Assembly (NCBI RefSeq): GCF_900113045.1
Contig: NZ_FONY01000001.1
Coordinates: 62,001-126,000, forward strand
Direction of reading: 5' to 3'
DNA from: Thermoflexibacter ruber
GTDB taxonomy: Bacteria > Bacteroidota > Bacteroidia > Cytophagales > Thermoflexibacteraceae
DNA: 64,000 nucleotides
Shown here in pieces: positions 17,879 to 52,013 of the stretch. The position numbers were made by a program, and so were the translations under genes. Positions within the stretch are counted from its first letter, which is position 1; each line of letters begins with the position of its first letter. The notes beneath the pieces are model-generated. The model saw nothing but the letters and a program-made list of their open reading frames with translations. It was not told the DNA's origin and did not search any database.

Positions 17879-20800
17879 TTGCTCAAATACTTTTGCATCA
17901 TATTTCTCTGTCTTTCAACTTCTCTCGCCAATGCCCAACTCTCCAACAAGCGTTGCAAATGGCTAATTATCAATTATCAGTTATCAATTAACAATAATCA
18001 AACAACCAACAACCTCAAACAATCTCAAACAACCAACAACCAACAACCTCAAACAATCTCAAACAAAATTGTATTTACCCTTGATACCCTCTCCCTCGTC
18101 CCTGACAGCATCAAAATCATCAGTATTTTGCCTAAAAAACAGGAAATTAAACTCTCTTATAGCCTGACTACCAATGAGCTTACTTTGGAAGGAGAAAACT
18201 TAGCGCTAATAGACTCTATTTTAATTTGTTACAGAGTTTTTCCTTTTTTGTTTAGCAAAACGCATTACAAGCGAAGCCAAACCCTTTACGATTCAGGCTT
18301 TTATACTTTAAAAAACAAGGAAAACTTCCAATCTCCTCTTTTGCAACAAGTTCAGGAAAGAGAAGAACTTTTTAGCTATGAAGGACTGAGCAAAAGCGGA
18401 AGCCTGACAAGAGGCATTTCCTTTGGGAATCGCCAAGATGTTTTTGTTAATTCTGCCCTGAACCTGCAATTGGACGGAAAAATCTCGCCAGATATTCACT
18501 TGACTGCGGTCATGACCGACCAAAATGTACCTTTCCAACCCGAAGGCAATACGCAACAGTTACAAGAGTTTGACCGAGTTTTTATCAAACTTTCTCACAA
18601 GGCAGTTTCGCTAAGTGCGGGAGATGTGGTGTTGCAAAACTCGCCGTCCCAATTTTTGCGTTTTTACAAAAACGTCTTGGGTGGCTTGATAGAAACCAAC
18701 TATGGGGCAGCAGTGGACAGTACCAAAAAGTTAGCAGAACAAAACTTGCCAAAAAATAGGGCTAATAGTAAATTGGGGTTTGCAGTGGCAAAAGGGCAGT
18801 TTTATTCCTACCAAGTGCCTATCAATGAGGGAGTTCAAGGTCCTTATCGGCTAAGAGGACAGGGCAATGAACGCTTTATCATCATTATTGCCAACTCGGA
18901 AAAAGTCTATGTGGACGGAAGGCTTTTGATGCGGGGATTTAATTATGACTACGTAATTGACTACAATACAGCAGAAATTACTTTTACCCCCAAGGTTATT
19001 ATTACTCAGTTTACACGTGTGCGTGTTGATTTTGAGTATTCTACACAAAATTATAGCCGCACTATTTTGACTGCGAGTCATCAGCAGGAAATCGGGAAAC
19101 TCTCCCTTTTTGGCAGTTTTTATAGAGAAAAAGACAATCCTAACAACCCGATTTTAGCCCAATTAGATACGGCTAACAGAAGATTGCTCTCTGAAATTGG
19201 AGATGATTTGACTTTGGCTGTCGCCCAAAGTGCGGTTAGAGTTCCTGATTTCCAAGAAGATAGGATTTTATATACAGAAAAAGACACGATACTGAATGGA
19301 ACGATTAAAAAAATTTATGTGAGGGCAAAAAGAGGAGATAGCCCACTTTATAACGTGAGTTTTTCAGAAGTCGGGCTGGGCAATGGCGATTATGAGATAG
19401 GAAGCCCAACTGCCAATGGGCGGGAGTATCAATGGGTTGGGAGTGGACAGGGAAGCTACAGCCCAGTGCGCCAACTGCCCGCCCCTAACCAAAAGCAAAT
19501 GACCGTCTTAGGCGCAAGTTACCAAGTGCGCCAAAACGAAAAAGTCTTTGTAGAAACCGCTTTGAGCAATCATGACAACAATCTTTTTTCTGCAAAAAGC
19601 ACCTTACCCAATGAAGGTTGGGCGGTAAAAGTGGGGTACATGGGAGAGAGAGAGTTGTTGGTGAAAACGCCAACAACGGCGAGAACTGCCCTACCCCCTG
19701 CCCCCTCCCCGAAGGAGAGGGGGCAGGGGGTAGGGCAGACTATGCTTTCCTACTCCATTGACTACGAATACGATAACTCCTACTTCCGTCCCATAGACCG
19801 CTTTCGTTATGTAGAATTTGACAGAGATTGGTCAGCCAATACCGACCTGCCCAATAGCGAACACATTTTGAATGCAAGCATAGGTTTGAAAAAAGACTTT
19901 AACAATTTTATTTCCTTAAAACATACAAGGCGAAACAGAGGTACACAAGTCAATGGTTTTCAACAATATATAGATGGAGCTTGGTCTTGGAAGCGTTTTT
20001 TTGTGCGAAGTAATTTTTTCTTGATGAAAAACCAGCAAGACAGCGCAAGGGCAGATTGGGTGCGTTGGCTTACAGATATTTCTCACAAAAGCAAGCATTT
20101 AGTAACAGGCTACGTTTATTCTATAGACAAAAATGCAGTTCGGCAATCTGCCAATGATTCTATTTTTGCAACTGCGATGAACTTTGATGAGCATAAGTTT
20201 TACCTCAAAAATGGGGACTCGACCAAGTGGCAGTATGGAGCAGATTACAGTTTCAGGGAGGACAATACGCCCCAAAATGGAGAGTTGGCAAAGGCTTTTC
20301 GTGCCAATACTTTCAATATCAACTTGCGAAGGCAAACGACTTCCCAACTTTTTAACCTCCAATTTACTTATAGAAAATTTGATAACTTGCAGAAGAATAG
20401 TACGCCTACTCAAATCCCAGAAGAAACCATTATGAATCGCTTGGATTGGAATTTTGACTTGGGCAAAGGGATAGTGAAATCAGAATTTACTTTGGTGAAT
20501 GGGACAGGACGAGAATTAAGACGAGAGTTTGTCTATTTGCAAGTAAACCCAGGAACGGGTACACACACTTGGCGAGATGATAATGGTGATGGCGTACAGC
20601 AGTTGAATGAGTTTTATTTGGCAATCAATCCAGATGAGAAAAATTATGTCAAATTTTTTACCCCTACTGATGAATATTTGCTTGCCTATACCAACAATTT
20701 TAGCTATCGTCTGAACTTCAACCCGCCTCGTACTTGGCTGAAAACCAAAGGCTTCAAAAGGTTTATCAGCAAGTTGAGTAGTGTTACCTCGTGGACTATC

Positions 20801-42175: not shown

Positions 42176-43297
42176 ATGAATATAGCTTTTGTAGGTAACT
42201 ATGAAGAAAATGCCGTTAATGGAGTCGTTGTTTCTGCTTATATGCAAGCAAAAATACTTGTTAGCTTAGGTCATAAAGTGTATTTTTATTTTCGTTCTCC
42301 ACGAGCTTTTATAGAAACGAACAAAGATAACATTACGAAGAGAGGTTTTGAGGGACAGACTCTTTTTACCTTTCTCCCCAATATTTATCGTTTTCTCCAA
42401 CAAAATCCTGATAAAATTGATATTTTTCATATACACAGTGTTTTTATTCCGCTCAATAAACTTTTTGCTTTTTGCTTCAAAAGACTTCATTACAAGTATG
42501 TGATTACGCCTCACGGTGGCTATGACCCCAATATCCTCAAAAGAGATTGGCTCAAAAAACAAGTCTATTACTTTTTCTTTGAAAAATCTTTGATTGGCAA
42601 TGCCAATGCCATTTTTTGTGTTGCCGAAAAGGAAAAATTGAGCATAGAGAAATTGAGTTATAAAGGATTGGTTTTTACTATTCCTAATCCAATTGATTTA
42701 GAAAATGATTGGATAGATTCTACCCATTATACTGATTCACAATCACTTCAAGAGAAGTACATTGTGTATATGGGACGTTACGATATGCAACACAAAGGCT
42801 TAGATACTCTGCTCAAAATATTTAAAGCAATAGAAGAAAAGCAAGTCAATTTATCACTGCACTTATACGGCATGGGAGAGGATTTAGTAAATTTGAAGTG
42901 TATAATTCAAGACTTGCAACTGCGTAAGGTATTTCTCCATAACCCTGCTTTTGGGGAGGAAAAATTAAATGTTTTTCAAAACGCTACCGCTTATATTCAA
43001 AATTCGCGATGGGAAGCCTTTGGCATATCTATCTTTGAGGCAGCAAGTGCGGGGCTTCCTTTGATAGTTTCCGAAGGAGTATATATGAAAGATTTTATCT
43101 CGAGGCATGGTATAGGCATTGTTTTAGAAAATAACATAGGTAAAGCCGCAGACCAAATCATCAAGTTTTGTGCTGATACAGACAAATTAAAGGAGATTAG
43201 CCACAGAATCAGAGGAGTAGTAGAAAATCATATGTCGGCTCGTGTAGTAGGGAAATTATTAGAGCATGCTTATTCAGAAGCAATCAAAAAGTACTGA
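42176..43297 (+). CDS. GT4 family glycosyltransferase
   Basis: This 373-residue GT-B fold enzyme has the glycosyltransferase 4 motifs. The N-terminal domain contains NIAFVGNYEENAVNGVVVSA and a conserved VITPHGGYDPNILKRDW. The C-terminal domain has YIVYMGRYDMQHKGLDTLL, and the donor-binding E-x7-E motif appears as SRWEAFGISIFEAASAGLPL. It likely adds a sugar to a surface polysaccharide or glycolipid. The ATG at 42176 follows the kinase stop by 45 bases. A weak hairpin (43326-43347) without a T run lies after the stop. Confidence 0.85.
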   Translation: MNIAFVGNYEENAVNGVVVSAYMQAKILVSLGHKVYFYFRSPRAFIETNKDNITKRGFEGQTLFTFLPNIYRFLQQNPDKIDIFHIHSVFIPLNKLFAFCFKRLHYKYVITPHGGYDPNILKRDWLKKQVYYFFFEKSLIGNANAIFCVAEKEKLSIEKLSYKGLVFTIPNPIDLENDWIDSTHYTDSQSLQEKYIVYMGRYDMQHKGLDTLLKIFKAIEEKQVNLSLHLYGMGEDLVNLKCIIQDLQLRKVFLHNPAFGEEKLNVFQNATAYIQNSRWEAFGISIFEAASAGLPLIVSEGVYMKDFISRHGIGIVLENNIGKAADQIIKFCADTDKLKEISHRIRGVVENHMSARVVGKLLEHAYSEAIKKY

Positions 43298-43441
43298 AAA
43301 TCAAGTATTTATAAAATTTATAAACAGGTGGATTGAATTTTCCACCTACCTTTCCACCCTCTTTCCGCCTCTCTGCATAGGAATAATCACACACGCCGAG
43401 TATATTTTTGCCTCATGTTTCACACAAAAAAGAAAAATAAT

Positions 43442-43819
43442 ATGAACACAAAAAATTCAACTTCAGGACTGTTGTTTGGCTTAGCCATTTTTGTCGGATT
43501 AATGCCGCTGACATTTACATTTTCCACAGAAAATACACAACTACTGCTGGACACCTCTTTTAAATATGCCGTTTGGGCTGGGCAGACATGTATTTTGATT
43601 TTACTACTTCTGACCAAGCACAACCTAAGCAAAAACCAACTTATTGCTTTGGCAGTGCTTTATCTTGTTGTGCCTTTTACCTTTATTTTCAATGAAAGTG
43701 GGGCTTATTTTCTAATCCTGAACAAGTACACAAGCTCTATTCTTTCGTGGGCAGTAGCAAGTGTATTAATTGGCAAATTGCTATTTTTACAAAAATTGAA
43801 AGAACATTCTAATCTTTAG
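43442..43819 (+). CDS. small four-helix membrane protein, partner of a LuxR-type regulator
   Basis: From the ATG at 43442 this protein has 125 residues and four hydrophobic segments (GLLFGLAIFVGLMPLTFTF and three more), with no known motif. The frame begins at another ATG (43415) that would add nine polar residues. Its last codons (LKEHSNL) lie in a 32-bp sequence repeated at 45388-45419, immediately upstream of the LuxR-type gene. This indicates that the two genes were once adjacent. It could be a membrane sensor or anchor for that regulator. A TATTTTTG element lies at 43403-43410. Confidence 0.65.
   Translation: MNTKNSTSGLLFGLAIFVGLMPLTFTFSTENTQLLLDTSFKYAVWAGQTCILILLLLTKHNLSKNQLIALAVLYLVVPFTFIFNESGAYFLILNKYTSSILSWAVASVLIGKLLFLQKLKEHSNL
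43787..43818 (+). repeat. 32-bp direct repeat, left copy
   Basis: It is identical to 45388-45419. It covers the last codons of the membrane protein gene; the stop codon uses the first base after the repeat. Confidence 0.95.
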
Positions 43820-43925
43820 ACTATGTTTAGAAAATAGCGAGCCATTTTTTGAAAAATACGAAAAGGCTGTTCTGAACACCTTAGGCATGGAATCTTGGTA
43901 GAAAATACACATGCTCCATTTCTTG

Positions 43926-43952
43926 AAAAGCCCCTATGGGGCTTTTATTTTT
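43926..43952 (+). terminator. intrinsic terminator within the insertion
   Basis: A 9-bp stem AAAAGCCCC/GGGGCTTTT with loop TAT is followed by ATTTTTG. It should stop transcription coming from the truncated operon before it reaches the zinc-finger gene. Confidence 0.8.
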
Positions 43953-44117
43953 GCCATTTATGAAAAATCAATGCCTTAAATTTCTAAACACTTTATCATT
44001 TTTGTAATTTTTTCTTTATTGATAAATTTTTACCCTCCAATTTTTTGAAATTCATGCTTTTTTGGATAACTTGTATAGTTTTTTCCTGAACCTATTACCC
44101 AGAAAAATACTATCAAC

Positions 44118-44125
44118 AAAGGAGG
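44118..44125 (+). promoter_or_regulatory. strong Shine-Dalgarno sequence deciding the zinc-finger gene start
   Basis: AAAGGAGG lies 8 bases before the ATG at 44134. Such a full match is unusual among the genes of this window and rules out the upstream TTG at 44062. Confidence 0.7.
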
Positions 44126-44133
44126 AACTCGAT

Positions 44134-45240
44134 ATGAGCATCAGAGTCGGAAGGTGGGACTGTCCCGCTTGCGGGCATAAAGCAAATTTAGGACCCTCGA
44201 CACATTGCGAAAGTTGCGGCGCACCTCGCGACCAAAAGGTAAAGTTTTATCTTTTGGACGATGAGGGCGAGGTAAAAAATGAACAAAAGATTAGGGAGGC
44301 TAAATCGGGCGCGGATTGGGAGTGCAACTATTGCGGTGCAGAGAACAAAGCAATTAACTCTGCGTGCAAATCTTGTGGCAATGCACGCGACCACCATGAC
44401 AAAAATAGGGAGCAGAAAGTCATTTACAACCAAGATAGCGTAGAATACCACGAGGAGCGCTTGCGTAAGCAGTATGCAAGCGAAGAGGAAATGATAGAAG
44501 CATTGCTTAAAAAGCACAAAAATTCAGGGCAGGAAGCTAAAAAAAAGTCGTGGAAAGGCACTGTTATCTTTCTGATGTTTGCTGCGATTATTGGTTTCTT
44601 GGGCTGGTACTACCTCATTCGTACCGAGAAGTTCACAGTTACAGTCGACAAGCACCTTTGGGTGTATTCTTTGCAAGTGCAGCAGTACAAAAAAGTAACC
44701 GAAAGCAGTTTCGACGTACCCGATGGTGCTAAGGTCATAAACAGTGAATTACATTTCCATCACTACGACCAAGTACCCAATGGAACGATAGCAAAAACAA
44801 GGCAAGTAAAAGTACAAACAGGGACTAAGAAAGTAAAAGTAGGGGTAAAAGACTTGGGGAATGGTTACTTCGAGGATGTATATAAAGACGAACCCGTATA
44901 TGGTTATAAGACGGAAACCTACCATGAGGTACAATACAAACAAGTACCCGTCAAGAAGCGTTACTATACCTATGAGGTCATGAAGTGGGTAGATGTGGGC
45001 AAACGCGATACCTTGCAAGGTTACGACCTCAACCCGCGTTACCCCGACACTAAACTTCCTAACCAAGAAAACTGGAGAGAGGTAGATAAAATGGAAAACT
45101 TCTACCTCGTTGTAAAAGACCATACGGGCAAATCTTACACTACTCCCGTCAATTATCAGTTTTGGAAAAAAATCAAGGACGGCGAGCAGATGGAAGCAAA
45201 ACGCAACAAAATTGGCAATATGTGGTTAGACGATGAGTAA
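44134..45240 (+). CDS. membrane protein with two RanBP2-type zinc fingers, unknown function
   Basis: This 368-residue protein begins with two zinc fingers of RanBP2 pattern (W-x-C-x2-C-x3/4-N-x6-C-x2-C): WDCPACGHKANLGPSTHCES, then WECNYCGAENKAINSACKSC. Between and after them are charged, coiled-coil-like residues. A transmembrane helix (VIFLMFAAIIGFLGWYYLI, about 167-185) leads to an external domain rich in Tyr, Val and Lys that I cannot assign. It is the only gene in the 1.6-kb insertion. Its codons use CGC, GAC and ACC more than neighbouring genes, consistent with transfer. The fingers face the cytoplasm in the simplest model and could bind nucleic acid or protein. Confidence 0.72.
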   Translation: MSIRVGRWDCPACGHKANLGPSTHCESCGAPRDQKVKFYLLDDEGEVKNEQKIREAKSGADWECNYCGAENKAINSACKSCGNARDHHDKNREQKVIYNQDSVEYHEERLRKQYASEEEMIEALLKKHKNSGQEAKKKSWKGTVIFLMFAAIIGFLGWYYLIRTEKFTVTVDKHLWVYSLQVQQYKKVTESSFDVPDGAKVINSELHFHHYDQVPNGTIAKTRQVKVQTGTKKVKVGVKDLGNGYFEDVYKDEPVYGYKTETYHEVQYKQVPVKKRYYTYEVMKWVDVGKRDTLQGYDLNPRYPDTKLPNQENWREVDKMENFYLVVKDHTGKSYTTPVNYQFWKKIKDGEQMEAKRNKIGNMWLDDE

Positions 45241-45387
45241 AAAATCAAAAATAAAAGATAAGTCCATAAAAAGACAAAGGGAATTTTCACTGTTAAAAAG
45301 GTAGTTTATAGAAACTAATACATTGATTATCACTTCTTAACACCTCTCTTGAGTGGGGTGCGCCACAGGTCAAATATTTGTTGAAAC

Positions 45388-45419
45388 TTACAAAAATTGA
45401 AAGAACATTCTAATCTTTA
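45388..45419 (+). repeat. 32-bp direct repeat, right copy
   Basis: It is identical to 43787-43818. Here it is followed by TAA-type stop context and AAAGGAAG before the LuxR-type gene, so it is probably the original junction. Confidence 0.95.
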
Positions 45420-45428
45420 AAAAGGAAG

Positions 45429-45866
45429 ATGACCGCAAAACGCAAACAAGAATTGCTCATCGCATTGAGTATTTTCTTGGCACTATGCTCTATTGGATTT
45501 TCATTTGATGGAACTGCTTTCTTGTGGTTTTGGCAGATGTACCCCATCATTGCTGTATTTCTGCTCTTGTTTGCGTTTTTTGCAGTTAGGTATTGGCTAA
45601 AACTCGAAATACAAAAGCAACGGCAAAATATCCTCGCAGCATACACTCAAAACCTTGAAGCCAGAGAGCAAAATAATTTCACTCATTTGCTTTCGCCAAG
45701 AGAAATAGAAGTATTAGTACTGATAAAGGAGGGACTGAGCAACAAAGAAATTGCTGAGAAGCTCTTTATTTCTCTTTCTACAGTAAAAACGCATATCAAT
45801 AACATTTACAAGATTTTGGAAGTAAAAAATAGGCGGGAAGCGATTGAAAAAATGAATGAGAAATGA
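45429..45866 (+). CDS. membrane-anchored LuxR-type HTH protein
   Basis: This 145-residue protein has two N-terminal transmembrane helices (LLIALSIFLALCSIGFSF and IIAVFLLLFAFFAVRYWL), a short linker and a C-terminal GerE helix-turn-helix. The latter reads LSPREIEVLVLIKEGLSNKE followed by IAEKLFISLSTVKTHINNIY. It lacks a receiver domain, so signalling must come through the membrane part or a partner, most simply the small membrane protein now 1.6 kb upstream. An AAAGGAAG Shine-Dalgarno lies directly before the ATG. Confidence 0.82.
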   Translation: MTAKRKQELLIALSIFLALCSIGFSFDGTAFLWFWQMYPIIAVFLLLFAFFAVRYWLKLEIQKQRQNILAAYTQNLEAREQNNFTHLLSPREIEVLVLIKEGLSNKEIAEKLFISLSTVKTHINNIYKILEVKNRREAIEKMNEK

Positions 45867-46180
45867 AAAGGGTGCAAGTTTTTAGCAAGCATTTCTAAAT
45901 AAGATAGTTAAAAATGTTATTTTGAGATTTTCAGGTATCTTTGAAAGTAAATTACCTTCATAGAATAAAAGCAATACAGAGTGATTTTTAAAGGGGAGAG
46001 AAAGTCCGCTTTTTATTTTCTTTAAGCAAATTTACAATATTTATTTACTTTATACATAATTATTAAATTTACTTGTTTCTTTGCATTGCATTTTTGTATC
46101 TTTGTGAAAATAAAAATAGTTGAATCGTTACATTTCAAACTATTTGACTTTCAAAACTATTTAACCATTGATTGATAAAA
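45867..46180. other. 314-base AT-rich intergenic region upstream of parE
   Basis: No gene or terminator was found after the LuxR-type gene. The region holds the parE promoter (46073-46104) and a leader of about 70 bases. Confidence 0.6.
46073..46104 (+). promoter_or_regulatory. Bacteroidetes-type promoter for parE
   Basis: A -33 TTG (46073-46075) and a perfect -7 TATCTTTG (46097-46104) are separated by 21 bases. Confidence 0.65.
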
Positions 46181-48067
46181 ATGCAAGAGGTAATCTATAA
46201 CGAAGACAGCATCAAATCCTTAGATTGGCGTGAGCATATTCGCTTGCGCCCAGGCATGTATATTGGCAAACTTGGCGACGGCTCGGCGGCAGATGACGGG
46301 ATTTATGTCTTGGTCAAGGAAATTTTGGATAATAGCATTGACGAACACGCTATGGGCTACGGCAAGCAGATTCGTATAGATATTCACGAAGGGCGAGTTA
46401 CGGTGCGCGACTACGGGCGTGGGATTCCTTTGGGCAAGGTAATAGACTGCGTGTCAAAGATTAACACAGGAGGAAAGTACGACTCTAAGGCTTTCCAAAA
46501 ATCAGTGGGCTTGAACGGCGTGGGTACAAAAGCGGTGAATGCCCTTTCTTCTTATTTCAGGGTACAATCTTTTCGCGAGGGAGAAAGCAAAACTGCTGAG
46601 TTCCAATTTGGGAACTTGCTCAAAGACCACCCCATAGAAAAAACAACAGAAAAAAACGGCACACTCATCATTTTTGAGCCTGACGATGCCATTTTTAGGA
46701 ATTATCGCTTTATTCCTGAGTTTCTTGAAGACCAGATTTGGAACTATGCTTTCTTGAACTCAGGTTTGAAAATCTATTTCAATGGCAACGAATACTATTC
46801 TGCCAAAGGCTTAGCTGACCTCTTGGGACGAAAAACCAACGAAGACAATCGCCGCTACCCTATTATTCATCTCAAAGGAGAGGACATAGAGGTAGCTATC
46901 ACACACACCGACCAATACGGCGAGGAGTATTACTCTTTTGTCAATGGACAATACACTACACAAGGAGGTACGCACTTAGCCGCCTTCAAAGAGGCACTTG
47001 TCAAGACAGTCAGAGAATTTTATAATAAAAACTATGAGCCTGCCGATGTGCGCATGGGCATTGCCGCCGCAGTAAGTATAAGGGTACAAGAGCCTGTGTT
47101 CGAATCGCAAACCAAAACCAAATTAGGCTCTATTAATATCGCTCCCGAGGGACAGTCGATTCGCTCTTTTGTCAATGACTTTTTGAAAAAGCAATTGGAC
47201 GACTATTTGCATAAAAACCCTCAGACTGCCAAAGCTTTAGAGGAAAGAATCCAACAGTCTGAGAAAGAGCGTAAAGACATCGCAGGCATACAAAAATTAG
47301 CCAATGAAAAGGCAAAAAAAGCCAATCTGCACAATAAAAAACTCAGAGATTGCCGTATCCACTATACTGATGTAAAAAATGAAAAACGCTATGAAAGTAC
47401 GCTTTTCATTACCGAAGGCGACTCGGCAAGTGGTAGTATTACCAAATCCAGAAATGTAGAAACACAAGCCGTATTTAGTTTGAGAGGTAAGCCCTTGAAC
47501 TGCTTTGGTTTAACTAAAAAAGTGGTCTATGAAAACGACGAGTTCAACCTCTTGCAACACGCCTTAGACATAGAAGATGGCTTAGAAAAGTTGCGTTATA
47601 ACCGCATTGTGTTGGCGACTGATGCTGATGTGGACGGTATGCACATTCGCTTGCTAATGCTGACTTTTTTCTTGCAATATTTCCCAGATATAGTCCGCAA
47701 TGGACACTTGTATATCCTTGAAACTCCCCTGTTTAGAGTGAGAAATAAGCAAAAAACTATCTACTGCTACTCAGAAGAAGAAAAACAACAAGCTATTAAA
47801 AAGTTAGGAGGGAAGCCAGAGATTACACGCTTTAAAGGATTAGGCGAGATTTCTCCTGATGAATTTGGTAAGTTTATTGGCGAAGATATGCGTTTAGAAC
47901 CCGTGATGCTCCGAAAAGAAACACATATCAGCAAGCTACTTTCTTATTACATGGGTAAAAATACACCTGAACGTCAGCAGTTTATCATTGAGAACTTGAA
48001 AATAGAAAAAGATATAGTAGAAAATGCCCTAACAGAAGTGCCTGTATTGGAAATGGTAGGAGTCTAA
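46181..48067 (+). CDS. parE: DNA topoisomerase IV subunit B
   Basis: This 628-residue GHKL ATPase subunit of a type IIA topoisomerase separates replicated chromosomes with ParC. The ATP site shows [17 protein letters not shown] (Glu47, Asn51), [13 protein letters not shown] and [14 protein letters not shown]. The TOPRIM domain has [11 protein letters not shown] and [15 protein letters not shown]. The C-terminal [18 protein letters not shown] is standard. The length and sequence fit ParE of Bacteroidetes better than GyrB, which is usually longer, but the distinction is not absolute. The ATG at 46181 is used over a TTG at 46172. No parC follows; a restriction enzyme gene begins 22 bases downstream. 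Confidence 0.88.
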
Positions 48068-48089: not shown

Positions 48090-51000
48090 ATGCCCTTGCC
48101 TATTGACCAATTTATTGATAATAACTACTTCAACTCTTACTTTGTCGAGTATGAGATGCCTAAGTATTTCCAAGGGGGAGAGCCTGAAACTGCCTTTGAA
48201 AATATCAAAGCGATGTACCATGCCTTAGACTTGGCAGACCTTACTGAAGCCCAATTGGAGCAGGAGTTTATCAAAAAAGTCTTAGAAAACTTGGGCTATT
48301 CTTTTGCTTATCAAGTTAATAAGAAAGTCTTTGGAAAAAACTACAAGCCTGACTTTGCCCTGTTTGAAAGCGAGGAGATAAAAAATGCACACTACAAAGA
48401 CGACAAAGCAAGCAATGAGAACATCTTGGCACTTTGTGAGAGCAAGGCGTATCCCGTGGCTTTGGATAATAAAAAAACAAATGAAGACAACCCTCATTTT
48501 CAGTTGATTAGGTATTTGAAAGATTTGAATTTGGGCTATGGGTTTTTGACCAATGGGCGTTTGTGGCGTTTTTATGATGTAAAAATTCAAAACAAAGATA
48601 AAATTTTTTATCAGATTGATTTACAGTGGATTATAGAAAACAACCAAATAGAAGCCTTCCATTATTTTTATTATATTTTTCATAAAAACTATCTTTTACA
48701 ACTCGTAAAACCTTTACCAGAAACTCAACAAGCCAACTTTGAGGAACTGAGCAAAGGGTATATCTTGCAAGTAGAAAACGACTTGAAAGAATTGATTTAC
48801 GGAGATAATTCTATCATAGAGAAAATAGGGCAAAACCTCTTTGCAAAGTATCAACATCAATACTCCATTCGGGAGATTTACGCTAACTCTTTGTTTTTTG
48901 CCTTCCGCTTGCTTTTCATTGCCTACTTTGAAAATAAATTTTCTCAGATTCTTTTCGGGCAGCACAAAAACTACAAATACTATTCTCTTCGCAGTATCCT
49001 GAAAAAATTAGAAAGTAACAAATTTGATAGTGAAGATTTTGAAGCATGGAATGACCTCAAAACCCTTTTCCAATATTTGGACAAAGGCAATCCTGATTTG
49101 AGAATTCCTTTGCTGGACGGGGGATTGTTTGCGGAGGCGAAAGCCCCCTTGCTCGCGATGCCTTTGGTACTCAATAACCAAGAACTCTACCAGATACTCA
49201 GCCAACTACTATACCACCAAGACGCAAAGGCGTGGCGCGACTTCAAAACGCTTTCTGTTACTCACATCGGCAATATTTACGAGGGGCTGCTCGAGTCCGA
49301 GTTCAGACCTGCCTTTGAGCCTACTTACTACTTGGTCTATCAGCAAGGGAAAAACCTAAGCGAAGGTTACTTTGATAGTTATGATTACCAACGACTTAAA
49401 AGCGATAAGAAAGTAAAAATACTTACTGAAAGAACTTATCATCGCAACGAAATCTATCTTTCCAACCAGTCCAATACCCGCAAAACTACGGCTTCGTATT
49501 ATACGCCTTCTGACATTACCAAATTTATGGTTACAGAAGCGATAGAAAAGGCATTGGTGCAGAAAGAAAGCATTTTGGACATCAGGATAATGGACAATGC
49601 TTGCGGGAGCGGACATTTTCTAATTGAATGTTTGTATGTACTTACCGAAAAGGCGATTCAAAGGCTCTTGGAAGGGAAAGACGAAAAGCTAAACCGAACC
49701 CTGCAAACAGAGCGGAAAATCATAGAGCAGGGTTTGGTCGGGGTACTCAAAAACATAGAACTTGATGAGTACACACTGCTGAGGCGTATCTTGCTCAAAA
49801 AAATCATCTTTGGCGTAGATTTGAACAGCTTTGCTATCGAGCTTACTCGCCTTTCCCTTTGGCTCGATACCTTCATCTTGGGTACGCCTTTGAGCTTCAT
49901 AGAGCATCACATCAAGCAAGGGAACGCACTGATAGGAGGTACGAAAAAAGAATTGTTTGATAACTTAACCGACCCGCATGACCTTTTTGCTACTCAATTG
50001 AGGGATAAAATAAAAAAACTCATAGAGCAGCTTAATGTGCTGAGCGAACTCAAAGACTCTACCGCCCAAGAAATAGAAAAGTCTAAGCAGATTTACAAGG
50101 ACATAGAGCCTGCCTTGGAGCAACTCAATTTAGCCATCAACTTTCATACGTATCGCCGTTTTGTTCCTATTTTGTTTGACAAAGAAAAAGCAAAGGAAAA
50201 GCAAATAGAATTGCAAAACGCATTAACAGGCTTTGAAAAGGCTATTTTCAAAGGAGAGAACCACGCACTAATCCAAGAAATCAGCCAAACAGCCCAAAAG
50301 TTTAGTTTCTTTAACTACGAAATAGAATTTGCCGAAGTTTTCCAAAATGGACACGCAGGTTTTGACATGATTATAGGCAATCCGCCTTGGGACAAGACCA
50401 AGTTTGACGACAAAGACTTTTTCCCTATGTGGCGCAGTTCGTACCGCACCATGAAACAGTCTGAAAAAGAGGAAGTAAGGATTACCGTCTTGGACTACAA
50501 AGGCGTAAAGGAAGAATACGAAGCCAAAAAAGATTTTATTACGCAAAGCAACGAATATTTCAAAGCACACTACCCCTATAATGCAGGCGTAGGCGACAAC
50601 AACCTATTTCGCTTCTTTATAGAGCATAATTTAAGATTGCTTGCTAAAAATGGCTCTCTCACCTATGTAACGCCTTCTGCATGGATATACGAGGACAGTT
50701 CGCTTACGCTCCGCAAGCACATTTTTAAGAATTATCATTTGCATTTTTTCTATCAGTTTGAAAACAGAAAGGGCATTTTCCCTGATGTGGATAGTCGCTA
50801 TAAATTTGCGATTTTTCAAATTACCATTAGCCCCGCTCAAACCCTCCCCAAAGGAGAGGACTTAGAGGGTAGGCATCTCCCTGTTCGCTTTATGCAAACG
50901 GATACAGATATACTCTACCGCAACGGTGGGAAAGATGAAATCCTGCACTACCCTATGGCAGACATTGTAGAGCTTTCTCCTGAGCATTGGGCTTTGTTTG

Positions 51001-52013
51001 AGGTCAGGACTGCACAAGATTTGGAGATTATCCGCAAGTGTTACCAAAAATTTGAGCCTATTTCTCCTGAATTTATAGATTTTAGGAATGAAATACACAT
51101 GACTGCCGATAGAGATATTTTCAAAGAAAAGCCCGACGATTTGGTGCTTTACGAAGGCAAAATGATACATCAGTTTGATAGCAAGTTTGGAGAGGCACAG
51201 TATTGGGTAAACAAAGAAGATTTTGAGAATAGGCTGATAGACACAGAGATAAGCCGTCTCGTAAGTGATATTTATCCGCAAATTCCCATAAAAAATGGCA
51301 AGGATAACCAGCGTGCCTTTGTGATGAAATACTTAGACATGAGCTACGAAGACCTGAGGAAAGCAGTGATTTTTGACACTGAATTTCCAAGATTGGTATT
51401 TAGAGGAATAGCAGGAGGTACAAATGAACGCACGCTAATTTCTACAATTTTGCCTCCTCATCAAACCTTTGGACATTCTATGTTTGCGCATATTCCAAAA
51501 CAGTATGTATTAGAAGGTAAAAATATCAAAGTAAGAGCCATTCCCATAGAACGTGTGCTGTTCGTCAATGCTGTATTCAATGCTTTGGTAGTAGATTTTC
51601 TTATTCGTTTTTTGGTGGATATGAATGTAGTCAAGTCTATCGTCATGCGTTTGCCTATTCCTCAGCCAAGTGATGAGGAACTGTTGGAAAATGAGGTGTA
51701 TCAAAAACTCATCATCAATGCTTGGAAGCTCAACGTGGCGAACAATCCTCAGTTGAAAGAAAGTTTAAACCCGCAAGGTTTTAAAAACCTTGCGGGTTTG
51801 AGTGGGGCAGCAATAGAACTTCCCAAAACCGACAAGCAAAAAACCTTTTTGCAGATAGAAATAGACTGTTTGGTCGCTCAGCTTTACGACATTACGCATG
51901 AGGAGTTAGCGCACCTGACCAGCCCTACGTATTTCAAAGTGTTGAATGAAAAAAACAAGGCGTATGTGAGTGCTTTGTTAGAAACTTACCAAACCTATCA
52001 GCAAGCAAGATGA
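48090..52013 (+). CDS. type IIG restriction-modification enzyme (Eco57I-like)
   Basis: This 1307-residue protein combines nuclease and methyltransferase. The N-terminal PD-(D/E)xK nuclease is indicated by Pro87-Asp88 and Glu117-Ser-Lys119 (KPDFALF and CESKAYP). SAM motif I is MDNACGSGHFLIE (about 501-513) and catalytic motif IV is IGNPPWDK (about 762-769), which predicts N6-adenine methylation. The remaining C-terminal 500 residues should hold target recognition. Two palindromic elements lie in frame, at about residues 913-924 and 1226-1237. It is 22 bases after parE and overlaps the glycosylase gene by 4 bases. Confidence 0.85.
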   Translation: MPLPIDQFIDNNYFNSYFVEYEMPKYFQGGEPETAFENIKAMYHALDLADLTEAQLEQEFIKKVLENLGYSFAYQVNKKVFGKNYKPDFALFESEEIKNAHYKDDKASNENILALCESKAYPVALDNKKTNEDNPHFQLIRYLKDLNLGYGFLTNGRLWRFYDVKIQNKDKIFYQIDLQWIIENNQIEAFHYFYYIFHKNYLLQLVKPLPETQQANFEELSKGYILQVENDLKELIYGDNSIIEKIGQNLFAKYQHQYSIREIYANSLFFAFRLLFIAYFENKFSQILFGQHKNYKYYSLRSILKKLESNKFDSEDFEAWNDLKTLFQYLDKGNPDLRIPLLDGGLFAEAKAPLLAMPLVLNNQELYQILSQLLYHQDAKAWRDFKTLSVTHIGNIYEGLLESEFRPAFEPTYYLVYQQGKNLSEGYFDSYDYQRLKSDKKVKILTERTYHRNEIYLSNQSNTRKTTASYYTPSDITKFMVTEAIEKALVQKESILDIRIMDNACGSGHFLIECLYVLTEKAIQRLLEGKDEKLNRTLQTERKIIEQGLVGVLKNIELDEYTLLRRILLKKIIFGVDLNSFAIELTRLSLWLDTFILGTPLSFIEHHIKQGNALIGGTKKELFDNLTDPHDLFATQLRDKIKKLIEQLNVLSELKDSTAQEIEKSKQIYKDIEPALEQLNLAINFHTYRRFVPILFDKEKAKEKQIELQNALTGFEKAIFKGENHALIQEISQTAQKFSFFNYEIEFAEVFQNGHAGFDMIIGNPPWDKTKFDDKDFFPMWRSSYRTMKQSEKEEVRITVLDYKGVKEEYEAKKDFITQSNEYFKAHYPYNAGVGDNNLFRFFIEHNLRLLAKNGSLTYVTPSAWIYEDSSLTLRKHIFKNYHLHFFYQFENRKGIFPDVDSRYKFAIFQITISPAQTLPKGEDLEGRHLPVRFMQTDTDILYRNGGKDEILHYPMADIVELSPEHWALFEVRTAQDLEIIRKCYQKFEPISPEFIDFRNEIHMTADRDIFKEKPDDLVLYEGKMIHQFDSKFGEAQYWVNKEDFENRLIDTEISRLVSDIYPQIPIKNGKDNQRAFVMKYLDMSYEDLRKAVIFDTEFPRLVFRGIAGGTNERTLISTILPPHQTFGHSMFAHIPKQYVLEGKNIKVRAIPIERVLFVNAVFNALVVDFLIRFLVDMNVVKSIVMRLPIPQPSDEELLENEVYQKLIINAWKLNVANNPQLKESLNPQGFKNLAGLSGAAIELPKTDKQKTFLQIEIDCLVAQLYDITHEELAHLTSPTYFKVLNEKNKAYVSALLETYQTYQQAR
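50831..50862. repeat. imperfect palindromic element inside the type IIG gene
   Basis: ACCCTCCCC pairs with GGAGAGG and outer ACCCTC with GAGGGT. It encodes QTLPKGEDLEGRHLP, proline/glycine-rich and unlike its surroundings. It is related in style to the palindromes at 19686 and 31439. Confidence 0.6.
51767..51799. repeat. perfect 33-bp palindrome inside the type IIG gene
   Basis: Sixteen-base arms (51767-51782 and 51784-51799) are exact reverse complements around one central base, with core AACCTTGCGGGTT. The length is a multiple of three, and it encodes NPQGFKNLAGL without disturbing the frame. Confidence 0.95.

Follow-up and report, generated by a model that had tools for sequence, protein, structure and literature searches.

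Organization of the split operon

The window analysed here, a stretch of 64,000 nucleotides from the Thermoflexibacter ruber contig NZ_FONY01000001.1, contained a two-gene operon interrupted by a composite insert. The first gene of the operon, M (43442-43819, + strand), was an open reading frame (ORF) encoding a 125-aa membrane-type protein that matched Pfam entries solely under the curated cut-offs, and its 3' end coincided with a duplicated 32-bp sequence. The second gene, LuxR (45429-45866, + strand), encoded a 145-aa LuxR/GerE-type regulator (PF00196, E = 9.2e-20) with a hydrophobic N-terminus, whose best identity to relatives reached 81% among the best 80 loci. The insert between them consisted of a 174-bp MITE-like repeat followed by 1,392 bp of cargo.

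The 32-bp direct repeat described in the initial annotation was confirmed as exact, with a left copy at 43787-43818 and a right copy at 45388-45419 (both on the + strand), while no direct repeat longer than 18 bp arose in 30 first-order Markov simulations of 64 kb. In the complete assembly of the organism (G000; 5.5 Mb in 123 contigs, 99.6% complete), the 32-mer occurred exactly twice with up to three mismatches allowed, ruling out that it is a common dispersed repeat, a possibility that the initial annotation had itself raised against its own reading. Elsewhere in the window, exact repetition over 32 bp or longer was seen at just one place, a tandem direct repeat of 34 bp at 18001-18066. The idea that the 32-mer, which comes after GTTGAAAC, might be CRISPR-spacer-like was abandoned for lack of a repeat behind it. 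On the inner side of the left seam, positions 43998-44007 formed a perfect 10-nt reverse complement of the start of the 32-mer (43787-43796), this initial 10-mer having one + strand occurrence in the window; the inverted copy could be a fold-back scar or a product of chance.

Empty site and host origin of the duplicated 32 bp

Excision of 43819-45419 rebuilt the compact operon that the initial annotation had described, in which the stop codon of M is followed by AAAAGGAAG and the ATG of LuxR. The same arrangement was found in other genomes. A two-row LuxR alignment was searched against genome contigs, the best 80 loci were kept, and 22 of these 80 were examined for M. Both genes were present in 12 of the 22 (L105, which is the G056 locus with the same junction sequence, being counted once), with M homologues upstream of LuxR at 23-70% identity, and in all 12 the two genes stood side by side without an insert, with at most 36 nt between the M and LuxR matches or an overlap of at most 8 nt. 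No credible M match was detected at the remaining 10 examined loci.

The closest of the loci examined (L095) belonged to a Saprospiraceae MAG, with amino-acid identities of 70% for M and 81% for LuxR. At the DNA level, its M 3' end aligned to the 32-mer without gaps, with several mismatches and in one copy, and the same was observed for L101, the other locus aligned in this way. As the 32-mer aligns to a single M 3' end in both loci, the left copy, which encodes the C-terminus of M, is the native M 3' end and the right copy is the duplication. M and LuxR were originally contiguous, and were separated by an insertion accompanied by a 32-bp target duplication.

Relatives of the M-LuxR pair were found in Saprospiraceae, Chitinophagaceae and Ignavibacteria MAGs (L095-L106), with identities of up to 70% and 81% for the two proteins. 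Within the order, 3 of 390 genomes had M, counting its own genome, and one of these three matches was weak and contained two stops. Searches of the two other genomes of the genus (one of them just 62% complete) yielded no M, and the LuxR matches in both were confined to the HTH part. Given such kin in these groups and this distribution within the genus, the M-LuxR operon itself looks horizontally spread.

A MITE-like element at the left seam

The left end of the insert was not specific to this locus, as its first 87-113 bp matched four further loci of the genome, on contigs 54, 123, 35 and 80, with 86-90% identity (a match on contig 113 was taken as an overlap with contig 80, because its flanks read the same). 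Alignment to these dispersed copies delimited a MITE-like element of 174 bp (43819-43992, + strand) with a degenerate right inverted repeat. Its left boundary was sharp and preceded by T(T/A)A in all five copies. Complete copies were restricted to contigs 35 and 80, where they measured 244 bp and carried the inverted ends GAGTATGTTTAGAAA and TTTCTAAACATACTC (the right end being degenerate in contig 35), contigs 54 and 123 had the left part alone, and the copy in the window was internally deleted relative to the 244-bp copies. The window element ended in GACTATGTTTAGAAA and TTTCTAAAC-ACT, compared with the intact GAGTATGTTTAGAAA and TTTCTAAACATACTC of contig 80, and thus has terminal inverted repeats of which the right one is degenerate.

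Target-site copies flanked the element on both sides, as TTA in the window and in contig 35 and as TTAA in contig 80. In the window, the left TTA (43816-43818) formed the final three nucleotides of the 32-mer, whose right counterpart was placed at 43993-43995 by an alignment in which the placement of the gap is not unique. When aligned to contig 80, both ends of the window element were paired, with an internal deletion between them and a degenerate right end followed by TTA, whereas with contig 35 the right ends stayed unpaired. The right half of the element scored 26.5 against contig 80 and 22 against contig 35, the maximum of 1000 single-base shuffles being 21 in each case, and a pattern search for the element ends with one mismatch returned 9 sites.

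MITEs that carry short inverted repeats and make TTA-type target duplications are non-autonomous derivatives of DDE insertion sequences. The 43819-43992 element resembles them in its related terminal inverted repeats, its TTA flanks, its several dispersed genome copies without coding capacity and its lack of an ORF of its own; it differs by the degenerate right inverted repeat, and it accounts for just 174 bp of the insert. This sequence is most simply read as having landed separately on the seam: because the native 32-mer itself terminates in TTA, transposition of the element into a left seam that had already been duplicated is the most economical scenario. The initial annotation was correct in seeing an insertion into the operon, but the insertion is not a single one, a separate MITE-like element with TTA flanks being present at its left seam. 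Similarly, the terminator attributed to the insert was recovered as a terminator-like hairpin at 43926-43946 (+ strand; 9-bp stem followed by a T-rich tail), but this hairpin belongs to the MITE-like element. As a statistic the hairpin is weak, with two terminator-like hairpins found in the region against 2.0 expected from shuffles.

At the other copies of the element, no direct repeat longer than 10 bp was detected between the 60 nt to its left and the downstream sequence (about 4.2 kb each for contigs 54, 35 and 80; 0.7 kb for contig 123). Sequences related to the core of the element (43858-43907 in the window) were also observed at no fewer than 15 places in a genome from another genus of the same family (G003), where the cores that were read (L046, L050, L052, L056, L060) sat in longer palindromic repeats containing words such as GGTAGAAA and CGCCGTAGGCG.

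The cargo segment and its zinc-ribbon gene

Once the MITE-like element and its TTA are set aside, the rest of the sequence between the two 32-mers formed a captured segment of 1,392 bp (43996-45387, + strand). It carried a zinc-ribbon gene (44134-45240, + strand), preceded by the ribosome-binding site AAAGGAGG (44118-44125, + strand). The encoded 368-aa protein, identified through Pfam (PF00641, E = 1.4e-10, in two stretches) and its homologues, possessed two RanBP2-type zinc ribbons near its N-terminus, a single hydrophobic segment recognized by eye, and a large C-terminal region; its single match in NCBIfam lay far under the cut-off.

The unusual codon use and strong ribosome-binding site pointed out in the initial annotation were both recovered quantitatively. 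Among the window's 39 ORFs of 150 aa or longer, the zinc gene had the lowest codon score (0.018), the other 38 having a mean of 0.077 (sd 0.021) and a minimum of 0.040. Its GC3 was 0.50 compared to a mean of 0.39, one other ORF reaching 0.506. An AGGAG or GGAGG motif was present within 20 nt of the first ATG in only 2 of the 39 ORFs, the zinc gene included, although translation may truly start elsewhere than at the first ATG. The gene was single-copy in its own genome. Overall, an atypical origin of the zinc-gene cargo is strongly supported.

A first scan of the genome contigs collection with the zinc protein alone returned no match. Homologues were present in 6 of 39 genomes among relatives and in 6 of 390 across the order, both figures including the organism's own genome. 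In a sample of the phylum, 13 of 395 genomes matched the zinc protein, own included; three others had E-values below 1e-100, while the remaining nine matches were weak and covered only part of model positions 10-195. The nearest homologues were 41-43% identical (BLASTP, 364 columns). In a tree of eight rows, from which the G008 homologue was left out, the window protein was on a long branch, making its placement unsure.

The neighbourhoods of the homologues in four same-family genomes (13-14 kb) were the same in G006 and G010, shared on one side by G012, and different in G011. In two genomes of another family, the homologue was located 10-11 nt downstream of an SPFH-type gene (PF13421 was confirmed for L176, and the other genome was read by eye). 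In Bacillus subtilis, YdjG is described as a membrane protein encoded together with the SPFH protein YdjI and with PspA in the pspA-ydjGHI operon (PMC8581546), with no mention of zinc in the text consulted. The zinc-protein homologues of these two genomes share this SPFH linkage, whereas the insert in the window has no SPFH gene; the likeness comes from gene context, and YdjG may serve as a functional lead for the zinc-ribbon protein.

Downstream of the zinc gene, a repeat-like stretch (45287-45365) matched the sister species G002 at two places (C194, E = 9.8e-6; C343, E = 7.7e-4) with 74-80% identity. Both places hold palindromic, hairpin-like words (by eye), and the stretch had no strong second copy in its own genome. 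A REP-like tail motif was not enriched in the window (3 matches, itself included, compared to 2.2 expected), and its exact form was present at 1 of 187 loci. The resemblance to the G002 repeats faintly suggests that the donor of the captured segment may have been a related genome.

Ends of the insert and search for mobile relatives

The initial annotation had suggested that the mechanism may be unusual. The insert was inspected for the features of known mobile elements. No terminal inverted repeats scoring above shuffles were detected, whether the left end was placed at 43819 or at 43996 (352 and 222 of 500 shuffles, respectively, scored as high). Besides the zinc gene, the insert contained no ORF of at least 50 aa that was not within or across that gene; the zinc gene is thus its sole independent ORF of this size, leaving no room for a transposase, in agreement with the initial annotation. 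Over 43819-45387, there were accordingly no terminal inverted repeats, no transposase-sized ORF and no second copy of the cargo, so that an unusual transposition mechanism is not supported by these tests. Features of a tyrosine-recombinase element were likewise missing, with no integrase-sized ORF in the insert and no further copy of the 32-mer in the genome.

When further occurrences of the insert ends were sought in the genome, as the initial annotation had suggested, the left end returned at the four other loci and the right end gave weak matches. Besides the query, 10 such matches were obtained for 45241-45400 (E = 0.001-0.76), of which 8 were inspected and 6 fell on one word at the right seam. 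These short AT-rich matches are probably due to chance; in a window control, the 17-nt word of the right end had 2 matches, itself included, compared to 0.74 expected.

No phage, plasmid or viral-contig relatives of the insert were found at the sensitivities used, in collections that may omit the records nearest to the genome of the window, and the 32-mer had no exact match in viral contigs. Known RNA families were not detected in 43000-46200 at the gathering threshold, nor was a tRNA that might have served as an integration target found within the window.

Origin of the insertion

A nested insertion, ordinary in kind and made of a foreign gene and a MITE, is well supported by these results. 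The detailed course that we consider moderately probable is a capture with a 32-bp step back, followed by the insertion of the MITE. Initially, an illegitimate event at the 3' end of M would have taken up the 1,392-bp foreign segment with its zinc gene, host sequence being re-entered 32 bp upstream of the point of exit, either through fill-in of a staggered break and end joining or through template switching. Its traces would be 32 bp of duplicated host DNA, without inverted repeats. The MITE-like element would then have transposed into the terminal TTA of the left 32-mer and brought in its terminator-like hairpin. Illegitimate capture is favoured because there are no inverted repeats, no other ORF, no phage, plasmid or viral kin, and no long repeats in the downstream sequence examined at the other copies of the MITE; the event was probably an ordinary gene capture with an unusually long scar. 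Owing to the duplication, LuxR retains its native upstream 32 bp and ribosome-binding region. M and LuxR are nevertheless likely to be separated in transcription now, and it may be the MITE that cut the LuxR regulator off from its partner gene.

Against this course stand the six weak own-genome matches on one word at the right seam, although these are probably chance. Two further observations speak against the independence of its two steps. The boundary of the MITE is the exact end of the 32-mer, which for unrelated events would have a chance of perhaps 5-10% (an estimate, not a computed value), and the window copy of the MITE differs by 10-14% from the others and carries a deletion, whereas the two 32-mers match perfectly, so that the MITE may not be younger than the duplication. 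Both of these would be accounted for if the MITE had come with the donor or preceded the capture in the operon, and if the repair of a break at the MITE had copied the zinc gene and re-entered a MITE-free sister chromosome 32 bp upstream. Such a repair is an unlikely course, as the right junction would have to come from an allele lacking the MITE, or the MITE would have had to be excised precisely afterwards, and as the TTA on both sides of the MITE is what transposition in place would be expected to leave. The 32-mers might instead be the attL and attR sites of a small non-autonomous element that a tyrosine recombinase supplied in trans had integrated where a gene ends. Insertion at the 3' end of a gene that restores this end is typical of att sites, and is what is observed here with an exact repeat of 32 bp; M is, however, a rare accessory gene (in those 3 of 390 genomes of the order) and an unlikely att target, no integrase-sized ORF lies beside the zinc gene, and neither a further 32-mer, in the genome or as an exact match in viral contigs, nor a plasmid or phage relative of the insert was found, which makes this reading doubtful. 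An assembly artefact, with false joins at a repeat, would fit a left seam that is a dispersed repeat in a genome of 123 contigs. It is highly improbable: the other MITE copies are merely 86-90% identical, two independent false joins would be required, and among the matches listed the right end has no exact word longer than 17 bp in common with the rest of the genome.

Long target duplications are known from insertion sequences of the IS1634/IS1549 type, with direct repeats that range in length between 8 and 514 bp, and for which the available text of PMC2266710 offers no model. The insertion in the window resembles them in that long direct repeats of host DNA (32 bp) flank it, and differs in having no inverted repeats, no transposase-sized ORF and a single copy. 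A non-autonomous transposon moved by a transposase of this type would benefit from these long variable duplications being on record without a mechanistic model (in the same text), and from the left end of the insert being a genuine MITE-like terminus. It is nonetheless quite improbable, given that no terminal inverted repeats were found for either definition of the left end, that the ends of the insert do not have the initial C given for IS1634 (PMC2266710), that the two full MITE copies show only TTA or TTAA at their ends, and that there is no second copy of the cargo. Very unlikely, in turn, is a mobile cassette without inverted repeats or an enzyme of its own, moving within the genus by an undescribed mechanism that duplicates a target of about 32 bp, for which the 10-nt inverted copy would be a guide to fold-back or template switching and the MITE end an entry point.

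Duplications of recipient sequence at the junction have also been described in Escherichia coli for integrated conjugated plasmid DNA, where they measured 109-950 bp in 14 sequenced clones and were explained by a single crossing-over on the cloned homology (PMC3240628). That system, as described there, shares with the window foreign DNA flanked by duplicated recipient sequence, whereas the duplication in the window is 32 bp long and involves no known donor homology.

With a well-defined empty site, a 32-bp scar of host origin and a seam marked by a MITE, the locus combines features that make it a clean, dissectible case of a single foreign gene settling in a bacterial operon without an evident transposon. 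Should the same scar recur elsewhere, the locus would become relevant to the problem of long target duplications. Further downstream in the window, a 1307-aa ORF with an NPPW motif was present at 48090-52013. From its motifs, it may be a large adenine-specific DNA methylase or restriction protein, and the gene just upstream of it is presumably topoisomerase-B-like.
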